A stretch of 33,669 bases of DNA from Phycisphaeraceae bacterium (lineage in GTDB: Bacteria > Planctomycetota > Phycisphaerae > Phycisphaerales > Zrk34). Position 1 is the first letter of the stretch, and each line of letters opens with the position of its first letter. Positions 6,534-22,855 of the stretch are shown here, one piece after another. A program made the translations under genes and the position numbers. The DNA is taken from NCBI GenBank assembly GCA_028282685.1, contig JANQHK010000017.1:1-33669 (forward strand), read 5' to 3'. The notes below the pieces were generated by a model, which was not told the DNA's origin, did not search any database, and saw nothing but the letters and a program-made list of their open reading frames with translations.

Positions 6534-7676
6534 ATGGCTGCATCGAAGGGCAAAGTTCTGCTGGCGATGAGCGGCGGGGTGGACAGCTCCGTCGCCGCCG
6601 CGCTGCTCCGGGACGACGGCTACGAGGTTGTCGGCTGTTTCATGCGTCTCGGTTCGCCGGGCGAACAACTCGCCGAGGGACCGGGCGTTTGCGACCCCGC
6701 TGCCGCCTGTCCATCGAAGCCATTGCACATCGGCAAGCAAGGCTGCTGCTCGATCAACGATGCCCGGGATGCGCAGCGTGTCGCCGCCCGTCTGGACATT
6801 CCGCTCTACGTGCTGAACTTCAAGCGTGATTTCGGACGGATCGTTGCGTACTTTGTTTCGGATTACCACGCCGGTCGCACCCCCAATCCCTGCGTGCGCT
6901 GCAACGACTGGTTGAAGTTCGGCAAGCTGGCCGAGTACGCCCGCTCGATCGACGCCGACTTCATCGCCTCGGGGCATTACGCCCGCGTCGAGCGGATCGA
7001 CGGCCGACCCGCCCTGTTGCGCGGAGCGGATCAGGCCAAGGACCAGAGCTACGTCTTGTTCGGGGCGCCGCGCGATCGCCTGGAGCACATGCGGCTGCCC
7101 GTCGGGCGCTACCGCAAACAGGAAATCCGCCGAATCGCCGGCGAACTGGGATTGCCCGTCCACGACAAGCCCGACAGCCAGGAAATCTGCTTCGTCCCGT
7201 CAAACAACTACATGGATGTGGTGGGCAAGACGGGCTCGGGGTCGGTTCGGCCGGGGCGAATCCTCGACACGTCGGGAAAAGACCTCGGCGAGCATCCGGG
7301 CCATCAGCATTTCACCATCGGTCAGCGGCGCGGTCTGGGCGTGGCGTTGGGCTATCCCATCTACGTGGTCAACAAGGATGCAAACAACAACACGGTGACC
7401 ATCGGCAGCCGGCGGGATTTGCGCTGCGCATCGCTCGTGGCCGACCAGGTCAATTGGTTAGTCGATCCTCCGGCCGATGCGCCGTTGCGCTGCGCCGCGC
7501 AGGTGCGCTACAACGGGGCGGCGGTTCCCGCACAGCTTACGTGCGAAGAAGACGATCGCATTCGGGTGCAATTCGATAAACCGGTCGAAGCGGTGGCGGC
7601 GGGACAGGCGGTGGTCTGTTACGAGGGCGATCGCGTGTTATGCGGCGGATGGATCGACCGTACCCATTCCACATAG
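6534..7676 (+). CDS. mnmA: tRNA-specific 2-thiouridylase MnmA
   Basis: Installs the 2-thio group of U34 in tRNAs for Lys, Glu and Gln, using ATP and sulfur relayed from a cysteine desulfurase. The PP-loop SGGVDSS is at 13-19. The catalytic cysteine is C120 in NPCVRCN and its partner C219 in SQEICFVP. The central domain has HFTIGQRRGLG, and a C-terminal beta barrel completes 380 aa, a normal length. Oddity: after the second strand (about 40-72) there is an insertion with C53, C59, C71 and C72, longer than in E. coli MnmA. The ATG at 6534 has no Shine-Dalgarno but a -10-like TATCAT 6 nt upstream. A 7-bp hairpin begins at the stop codon. Confidence 0.95.
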   Translation: MAASKGKVLLAMSGGVDSSVAAALLRDDGYEVVGCFMRLGSPGEQLAEGPGVCDPAAACPSKPLHIGKQGCCSINDARDAQRVAARLDIPLYVLNFKRDFGRIVAYFVSDYHAGRTPNPCVRCNDWLKFGKLAEYARSIDADFIASGHYARVERIDGRPALLRGADQAKDQSYVLFGAPRDRLEHMRLPVGRYRKQEIRRIAGELGLPVHDKPDSQEICFVPSNNYMDVVGKTGSGSVRPGRILDTSGKDLGEHPGHQHFTIGQRRGLGVALGYPIYVVNKDANNNTVTIGSRRDLRCASLVADQVNWLVDPPADAPLRCAAQVRYNGAAVPAQLTCEEDDRIRVQFDKPVEAVAAGQAVVCYEGDRVLCGGWIDRTHST

Positions 7677-7696: not shown

Positions 7697-7751
7697 CATC
7701 CAACTTCATCACATTGTGTCGGCGCGGTGATACGCGATTAAATCCGCGCAT

Positions 7752-7786
7752 AAAAAAAGGCGCCTGGTAGGGGACGGCCAGGCGCC
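7752..7786 (-). terminator. Intrinsic terminator of the small-RNA candidate
   Basis: On the minus strand a perfect 9-bp stem (GGCGCCTGG / CCAGGCGCC, positions 7786-7778 and 7767-7759) is followed immediately by seven T's (7758-7752). This is a textbook Rho-independent terminator and sets the direction of the hairpin locus. Confidence 0.75.
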
Positions 7787-7895
7787 CGGGGTTACGCAAG
7801 TCTTGGGGGAGACTTGCGTGAGACGTCCGGTGGGGAAGGCCGGACGTCGTTCGGGCGGTGAGGCAGTCGGGGGAAGGACAGGATTCCTCACCGCC
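7752..7895 (-). ncRNA. Candidate small RNA of four consecutive hairpins with C-rich loops
   Basis: Read on the minus strand this locus is almost entirely paired. Hairpin 1: 10-bp stem 7895-7886/7863-7854 with a 22-nt loop. Hairpin 2: 9-bp stem 7848-7840/7830-7822. Hairpin 3: 10-bp stem 7819-7810/7803-7794. Hairpin 4: 9-bp stem 7786-7778/7767-7759, followed at once by seven U's. All stems are perfect. UCCCC occurs in the loop of hairpins 1, 2 and 4 and at the stem-loop junction of hairpin 3. A promoter-like pair upstream places the RNA start at the foot of hairpin 1, predicting a transcript of about 145 nt. There is no start codon or reading frame of note. It lies in the mnmA-lysC gap, antisense to neither gene. 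A trans-acting role through pairing with G-rich ribosome sites is inference. Confidence 0.6.
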
Positions 7896-7901
7896 TTACT
7901 A

Positions 7902-7929
7902 ATGGTATCTTAACTACGGGGCACAGCAA
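7902..7929 (-). promoter_or_regulatory. Predicted promoter of the small-RNA candidate
   Basis: Minus strand: TTGCTG (7929-7924), 16-nt spacer, TACCAT (7907-7902). Each hexamer matches consensus at four of six positions. The start would fall about 7 nt further on, near 7895, where hairpin 1 begins. The -35 lies within another inverted repeat (7920-7945). Confidence 0.45.
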
Positions 7930-8162: not shown

Positions 8163-9479
8163 ATGAGTTTGAAAGTCGCCAAATTCGGAGGCAGCTCCCT
8201 GGCCGACGCCGGGATGATCGATCGCGCCGCGTGCATCGTCCGCAGCGATCCGGACCGACGTTACATCGTGCCCTCGGCCCCGGGCAAGCGTCACGCCGAC
8301 GACCGTAAAATCACGGACCTGCTGTATCTGTGTCATGCGGCCGCCGCCCAGAAAGTCGGTTTTGAAGAAACTTTCGGGCTGATTCGTGATCGGTATCTTC
8401 AGATCGTCAAGCTGCTGGAGTTGAAGCTCGAACTCGAATCCGTGCTGGACGACATTCACCGGCAGATCGCTGACGGCGCCTCGTCGGCATTTACCGCCAG
8501 CCGCGGAGAATACCTGAACGGCCTGATCCTGGCCGACCTGCTGGGGTTCGCTTTCGTCGATCCGGCGGGGATGATTATCTTCGACGAGCACGGCCGATTC
8601 CAACCCGAGCAAACCAACGTCGCCGTCGCACGCGCCCTGGGTGAGCACCCGCGCGCGGTGATCCCGGGCTTCTACGGCTCGGGGCCGGACGGCGCCATTC
8701 ACACTTTCAGCCGGGGCGGCTCGGATATCACCGGCGCCATCGTGGCGCGGGCCACCGAAGCCGACGTGTACGAAAACTGGACCGACGTGCCGGGCCTGCT
8801 CATGGCCGATCCGAGGATCATCGACCAGCCCCATCCGATTGACAAAATCACCTACCGCGAATTGCGCGAGTTGGCCTACATGGGCGCGAACGTCCTGCAC
8901 GACGAAGCGATCTTCCCCGTGCGCAAGGCCGGAATCCCCGTCAACATTCGCAACACCCACAACCCCGATCAGCCCGGGTCCGTCATCGTGCCCGACGACT
9001 ATCCCATCGCGCACACCGGCACAATCACCGGCGTGGCCGGGCGGAAGAACTTCACCATCCTCACCATCGAAAAAGCCCTGATGAACAGCACGCTCGGCTT
9101 CGGCCGACGCCTGCTCAACGTACTGGAAGTGCACGGGATCAGTTTCGAGCACCTGCCCTCCGGCATCGACACCATGAGCGTGGTCATCAGCGACGATCAA
9201 CTCAATGACAAACTCCAGTCCGTGCTCGACGACATCGAGAACGAGTTGCATCCCGATTCCGTTGAGGTGAGTCCCGAGATGGCATTGATCGCGACGGTCG
9301 GCCGGGGCATGTCGCACACACCGGGCATGGCCGCACGCCTGTTCAACGCGCTGGCCGAGGCATCGATCAACGTCGGCATGATCGACCAAGGCTCCAGCGA
9401 ACTGAATATCATCGTCGGTGTGGAGGCCGACGTCTTCGAAACCGCCGTCAAGGCGATCTACCACGCGTTCGTGGAGTAG
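8163..9479 (+). CDS. lysC: Aspartate kinase
   Basis: Phosphorylates aspartate, the committed step to lysine, threonine, methionine and diaminopimelate. The kinase domain opens with KFGGSSLA (7-14) and has SRGEYLNG and FSRGGSDITGA, which bind aspartate and ATP. Two ACT domains occupy the C-terminal part (about 295-438); in this family they bind amino-acid effectors, so feedback inhibition is likely. The segment PSAPGKRHADDRKITDLL resembles the longer single-chain aspartokinases of Bacillus (YclM/ThrD type) rather than the alpha/beta type. I start at the ATG at 8163 because family homology begins there; a GTG at 8154 is only 3 nt from AGGA. It ends 10 nt from the convergent glycosyltransferase gene. 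Confidence 0.93.
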   Translation: MSLKVAKFGGSSLADAGMIDRAACIVRSDPDRRYIVPSAPGKRHADDRKITDLLYLCHAAAAQKVGFEETFGLIRDRYLQIVKLLELKLELESVLDDIHRQIADGASSAFTASRGEYLNGLILADLLGFAFVDPAGMIIFDEHGRFQPEQTNVAVARALGEHPRAVIPGFYGSGPDGAIHTFSRGGSDITGAIVARATEADVYENWTDVPGLLMADPRIIDQPHPIDKITYRELRELAYMGANVLHDEAIFPVRKAGIPVNIRNTHNPDQPGSVIVPDDYPIAHTGTITGVAGRKNFTILTIEKALMNSTLGFGRRLLNVLEVHGISFEHLPSGIDTMSVVISDDQLNDKLQSVLDDIENELHPDSVEVSPEMALIATVGRGMSHTPGMAARLFNALAEASINVGMIDQGSSELNIIVGVEADVFETAVKAIYHAFVE

Positions 9480-22330: not shown

Positions 22331-22831
22331 TTAACGGCGACGTCGGCGACGAAGCACGAACGCTCCGCCCAGGCCCAACAGAGTCAGCGTGGCCGGCTCG
22401 GGCACGGCTTGCCCCGTTGAAATGAAGACCGGGTGCGTTGACGGGCCCGTCGCCGGATCGAGATCGATCGCATCACTGGCGAAAAACTCCATATCGTCAT
22501 TCCCGGCCCCCAAGCTGCGGCGGGCCGATCCCATTCGATCATCCAATTCCAGGTAGTGTGGCGTCGGAGGCAACGAGGTCAACACCACCTTCCGCAGCCA
22601 GTCGTGATCGGGTTTGATCACGATCGCTCCCAACGGCATGCGGGTGTCGATTTGCTGGTAGGACGCGGCCGAGCGTTGCCTGCGAAGTTGCAGGAAAAGT
22701 TGAGCGGCATCGGACAAATCGTGTTGTGCTTCGATGTTTCCCGACGGGCGGGTACGAGGCGGATCGGTCGGAATCAGCCACGCCACCGCCAGAACGGCCA
22801 ACGGGATCACCAGGCAGAGCTTGTACATCAT
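22331..22831 (-). CDS. Small PEP-CTERM-anchored secreted protein
   Basis: A 166-aa exported protein with a signal segment (about 4-20) and a C-terminal sorting tag: VPEPATLTLLGLGGAFVL followed by six Arg. This is the PEP-CTERM tripartite signal (PEP motif, hydrophobic helix, basic end), recognised in other bacteria by exosortases for cell-surface or exopolysaccharide-linked display. The middle (about 30-140) matches no domain I know. The tandem ATGs at 22831 and 22828 are both possible; GAGGAG lies just upstream. No exosortase gene is in the window. It converges with ilvD with no intergenic base. Confidence 0.8.
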   Translation of the reverse strand: MMYKLCLVIPLAVLAVAWLIPTDPPRTRPSGNIEAQHDLSDAAQLFLQLRRQRSAASYQQIDTRMPLGAIVIKPDHDWLRKVVLTSLPPTPHYLELDDRMGSARRSLGAGNDDMEFFASDAIDLDPATGPSTHPVFISTGQAVPEPATLTLLGLGGAFVLRRRRRR

Positions 22832-22855
22832 GCGGCTCCTCAACGCACCACATCT

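Follow-up and report, generated by a model that had tools for sequence, protein, structure and literature searches.

A conserved candidate small RNA with repeated C-rich hairpin loops in the Phycisphaerales

Between mnmA and lysC of a Phycisphaeraceae bacterium lies, very likely, a real, conserved and uncatalogued small RNA (sRNA) gene. We describe it in a window of 33,669 nucleotides (the whole stretch of DNA that was analysed; its genome is called G000 below). Taken as a whole, our reading is that a minus-strand sRNA is made here and that base-pairing through its C-rich loops is its most likely mode of action; we put the probability of this complete statement at about 0.55. As far as our Rfam and literature searches extend, it would amount to an undescribed RNA family in a lineage with little known riboregulation, where hfq was not found in the 21 genomes of the order that were searched (G000-G020).

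Architecture and transcription signals

The predicted sRNA occupies positions 7752-7895 of the minus strand (about 145 nt, 5' end at 7895 +/- 3; covariance-model match 7750-7895). It is flanked by two plus-strand genes, mnmA (6534-7676; NCBIfam MnmA equivalog, 400 bits) and the aspartate kinase gene lysC (8163-9479; NCBIfam aspartate kinase equivalog, 536 bits). The first-pass annotation had described four perfect stems of 9-10 bp with their spacers and loops, a run of seven U residues and promoter hexamers, and all of these are found on the minus strand at the positions that it gave. Hairpin 1 (H1, 7854-7895) combines a 10-bp stem with an inner 3-bp GUC/GAC stem that closes the loop CUUCCCCC; H2 (7822-7848) has a 9-bp stem and the loop CCUUCCCCA; H3 (7794-7819) has a 10-bp stem on which UCCCC starts at the last stem base, the loop itself being CCCCCA; and H4 (7759-7786), the terminator hairpin, has a 9-bp stem and the loop CCGUCCCCUA. 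The spacers measure 5, 2 and 7 nt, the last being a single-stranded linker, AACCCCG (7787-7793), of which AACCCC is invariant in G000 and two relatives of one genus, G008 and G001. The U7 tail of the intrinsic terminator follows at 7752-7758.

This fold is far more stable than its composition would predict: the minimum free energy of the minus strand is -74.1 kcal/mol, whereas dinucleotide shuffles give -41.8 +/- 3.3 (z -9.8), none of the 200 being as low. The array also stands out within its genome. Of the 418 perfect stems of 8 bp or more that we counted in 1.49 Mb of G000 (121 pieces, about half of the genome), 20 have C4/G4 loops, and H2, H3 and H4 account for three of these; H1 fell outside the count, its loop being above the loop limit of the script. 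No second cluster of three hairpins with C4/G4 loops occurs in these 1.49 Mb, and a covariance search of the genome returned a single copy of the sRNA. Another four-hairpin cluster in G000, at L239:16640-16794, has short perfect stems and the loops AGGGAC, CTAC, GACT and GGTC. Elsewhere in the window (22331-22843, minus strand) is a gene whose product NCBIfam recognizes by a PEP-CTERM sorting signal at its C terminus; together with the presence of csrA and the failure to find hfq, it points tentatively to Planctomycetota.

Which strand is transcribed? A -10 box, TACCAT (7902-7907, minus strand), lies 6 nt before the H1 stem, and a -35-like TTGCTG, recognized from sequence only, is placed 16 nt from it (7924-7929, minus strand). 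Of this proposed promoter the -10 element has held up: although the copy in the window matches the -10 hexamer at only 4/6 positions, a similar hexamer stands 3-11 nt upstream of H1 in 6/6 homologues, five of which have at least 5/6 matches, a result that 0 of 20,000 shuffles reached. Coming from one genus, G008 and G001 do not count as independent, yet even so the agreement is far above what chance would give. The -35-like hexamer shows no clear conservation among the relatives. At the other end, a U-tract follows the array on the sRNA strand in G008, G001, G003 and G002, and weakly (UUU) in G007; on the plus strand none follows it in any of the six genomes. G.U pairs, often informative in this respect, give no decision here, with 25 for the sRNA strand versus 27 for the opposite one. 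An automatic promoter and terminator scan returned nothing, because the terminator loop is longer than the 8 nt that it allows and TACCAT has only four of six matches. Judged by these signals, transcription very probably proceeds from the minus strand.

Conservation and selection within the family

Homologues were found in five further genomes (G008, G001, G007, G003 and G002), so that, with G000, the predicted sRNA is carried by 6/9 genomes and 5/8 genera of the family. In G008 and G001, which represent two species of a single genus in the same family as G000 but outside its genus, a DNA search matched the terminator hairpin, and reading of these loci revealed the whole array. A covariance model built from these three sequences matches G003, G007 and G002 at E 8e-9 to 4e-6. 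When a second model, built from all six sequences, was run on 400 genomes of the order and 397 of the class, the sole addition was G045, from another family, at E 0.003. This candidate (L109, about 1495-1625) is a shorter putative sRNA that carries a GATACAAT box, leaves CCCCCACCC (CGCCCCCACCC) unpaired and has UCCCCC (CUCCCCCA) in the loop of its terminator hairpin; it may be a distant relative or a product of convergence. Weak covariance matches in G006, G126, G005 and G132 were set aside as chance after inspection of the sequences, and a pattern search for the H4 motif with two mismatches in 400 genomes gave a frequency about equal to that of the reversed control. Absence outside the family is weakly supported, because the wide searches evaluate only a small number of candidates in each genome.

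The homologues occur in two unlike neighborhoods. In G000, G008, G001 and G007 (three genera) the sRNA is located between mnmA and lysC, and in G003 and G002 (two genera) it is divergent from a sigma-70 gene, which implies that the unit is independent of its neighbors and does not need flanking transcription. By its genomic settings, the predicted sRNA is an autonomous unit. The sigma-70 gene itself (L073:123-1169; L075:2181-3155) is 77% identical between the two genera, and is a possible target or regulator of the sRNA.

The first-pass annotation had pointed to covariation in relatives as a check on the structure, and the stems indeed stay paired through compensatory changes. Every pair of the structure is standard in G000, G008 and G001, and two-sided changes affect eight pairs, of which seven are among the ten of H1. 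None of 500 shuffles equals the three-sequence structure in the number of cells paired, and structures slid along the alignment pair 35-46%. The H1 stem is kept in G007 and G003, where its sequences differ again. H4 has two compensatory pairs across the six sequences; its covariation taken alone is weak, 13 of 500 shuffles being as good.

The loops follow a looser rule. UCCCC had been proposed to mark every loop, and this is true of the G000 copy, but not of the family, where H3 departs from it in G008, G001 and G003 and H2 does so in G007. Likewise, conservation of the loop motif is borne out at H4, where UCCCCU is invariant in 6/6 genomes, whereas the loops of H2 and H3 vary. The H1 loop contains CCCC in 5/6, the C-rich H2 loop is common to G000, G008, G001 and G003 (in G007 it is GCAAAG), and H3 is kept as a hairpin while its loop sequence is not, reading AGAAAG in G008, lacking C-richness in G001 and G003, and carrying UCCCCCC in G007. 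In G002 the 5' half is a different one and contains CUCUCCUU. As read from these alignments, the family rule is one of C-rich loops at H1 and the terminator, plus one or two between them. Comparison thus shows the predicted transcription unit, its orientation, its stems and the C-rich loops of H1, H2 and H4 to be under selection in the family. Covariance, the conserved -10 box and the U-tract accordingly back the proposal of an sRNA that stands alone on the minus strand, is about 145 nt long and has its own promoter and terminator.

Possible targets and alternative functions

How might such an RNA act? We envision a transcript of about 145 nt that would start near 7895, run leftwards, fold into four independent hairpins and stop at the intrinsic terminator at 7752. 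Its exposed UCCCC loops would serve as redundant seeds for GGGGA stretches in the leaders of a limited number of mRNAs, and pairing, mostly at or near the ribosome-binding site, would block translation. By analogy with LhrC, alpha-r14 and RepG, look-alikes of demonstrated mode of action in which exposed C-rich loops on rigid stems seize G-rich mRNA sites, the RNA probably silences mRNAs to which it can pair at a G-rich stretch close to the start codon. Since hfq was not detected in the 21 genomes, such pairing would have to be independent of Hfq. More tentatively, the RNA might be a multivalent regulator in which several stable hairpins with C-rich loops replace the chaperone, and in which the difference between G-rich leaders and AGGAG sets a defined regulon.

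A general targeting of Shine-Dalgarno (SD) sites, as first suggested, does not fit this genome. In the -20 to -4 windows of 1064 predicted genes of G000, AGGAG occurs 87 times versus 3-9 times in control windows, whereas GGGGA, at 17 versus 11-17, is not enriched; the 3' end of 16S rRNA in relatives is the usual CCUCCUUUCU. With SD sites of the AGGAG type and GGGGA unenriched at starts, we reject a general anti-SD role of UCCCC; the loops would reach only a limited number of G-rich or GGGGA-containing leaders. AGGGGAC, the complement of the H4 loop, is present in 4 of 1064 ribosome-binding-site windows against 0.45 expected, an excess to be read with the fact that AGGGG is itself SD-like and that such words are enriched anyway. 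A check of targets at ribosome-binding sites had also been proposed, and the one target traced through orthologues, comM, is not conserved: its site (AAGGGGACGCAUG in G000) is absent from the orthologues with a readable start. AGGGGA or GGGGAC stands directly before the start at L215:217, at L244:1785, and in front of a response regulator gene (L194), clpB (L124) and a PilZ protein gene (L199), all candidate targets of the H4 loop.

A convincing mRNA target was not found, and the C-rich loops of a real sRNA could instead bind a protein or 16S rRNA, making it a sponge or decoy. We consider this unlikely. Protein sponges, too, set similar loops on variable stems, but no bacterial protein with affinity for C-rich loops of this sort is known to us. 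As to rRNA, the H4 segment UCCCCUAC (window 7766-7773, minus strand) could pair without mismatch with GUAGGGGA, close to the 3' end of the relatives' 16S rRNA. This complementarity is kept in G007 but lost in G008, G001, G003 and G002 (loops UCCCCUUCC, UCCCCUGCC and UCCCCUCC); we reject it as a function and regard the match as probably due to chance.

Still less probable is that the plus strand is the active one, transcribed either by read-through of mnmA or from its own promoter, and titrates CsrA by one GGA per hairpin (AGGGGAC, GGGGGAGA, GGGGAAGG and GGGGGAAGG). The ingredients are present, in that csrA was found in 21/21 genomes of the order searched (one copy in G000), every plus-strand loop has a GGA, the plus strand is equally stable (-88 kcal/mol, z -7.6), and G.U pairs do not tell the strands apart. 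The minus strand, however, is the one that has the U-tract and the conserved -10 box, no mnmA lies upstream in G003 and G002 to supply read-through, and the conserved word is GGGGA rather than the A(N)GGA of CsrA sites. The likeness to sponges of the CsrB/RsmY type, which also repeat hairpins with one conserved loop motif, is offset by the fact that here the GGA loops would sit on the other strand, which has neither terminator nor promoter. In the minus-strand RNA GGA occurs only twice, at the foot of the inner side of H1 and in the H2 stem, and never in a C-rich loop.

That the array yields no functional RNA, being a terminator or a stable palindromic repeat that arose by chance, is very improbable even though intergenic palindromes are common, given the compensatory changes, conserved loops and -10 box, the two unrelated genomic settings and the single copy in the G000 genome, and, for a terminator alone, the facts that one hairpin would suffice and that no minus-strand gene ends there.

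Comparison with known RNAs

The preferred reading, a minus-strand sRNA that pairs through its C-rich loops, describes an RNA whose family is uncatalogued as far as Rfam and literature searches reach, and whose kind is already known. The annotation had recognized no family, and Rfam agrees: no family of Rfam 15 matches at its gathering score, permissive thresholds also give nothing, and the scores against two models of alphaproteobacterial sRNAs are at chance level (Rhizobiales-2, 18.5 bits versus 40, E 4.2; mmgR, 15.8 versus 41, E 0.58).

Its likening to sRNAs with UCCC loops was apt. In S. aureus, the UCCC motif of RNAIII, RsaE and SprD is the mRNA contact, as summarized in work on LhrC (PMC4132741); these RNAs have no sequence relation to the present one, and their targets are SD sites. 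LhrC of Listeria monocytogenes itself binds the G-rich lapB leader through three UCCC sites, which lie in two loops and a linker (PMC4132741). It too is a short sRNA that has its own terminator, and its redundant UCCC seeds are spread over a loop, a single-stranded linker and the terminator loop; here UCCCC is found in H1-H4, and the linker reads AACCCC, not UCCC. LhrC differs in having two stem-loops and five copies, versus four stem-loops and one copy here, and in its low-GC host with Hfq; homology to LhrC1-5 is not detectable at the Rfam 15 gathering score. RepG of Helicobacter pylori binds a G-repeat through its terminator loop (PMC8295292), and so resembles our RNA in opposing a C/U-rich terminator loop to a G-rich leader rather than to the SD as such, but it has one binding loop, two stem-loops and a long G-repeat as its target.

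Similar in layout are alpha-r14 of alphaproteobacteria, with three hairpins, identical anti-SD motifs and diverged stems (PMC10746234), and the NfeR1 'cuckoo' type, which share with the present RNA a row of hairpins that present the same unpaired C-rich motif on diverging stems. They have three hairpins, belong to another lineage and use the motif CCUCCUCCC, which is absent here, CCUCC not occurring in 7751-7897 of the minus strand in the G000 copy. The likeness to the LhrC and alpha-r14 design, equal C-rich loops on freely changing stems, is apparently convergent, and the sRNA makes it testable whether a layout of multiple C-rich loops works without a chaperone and why it has evolved repeatedly.
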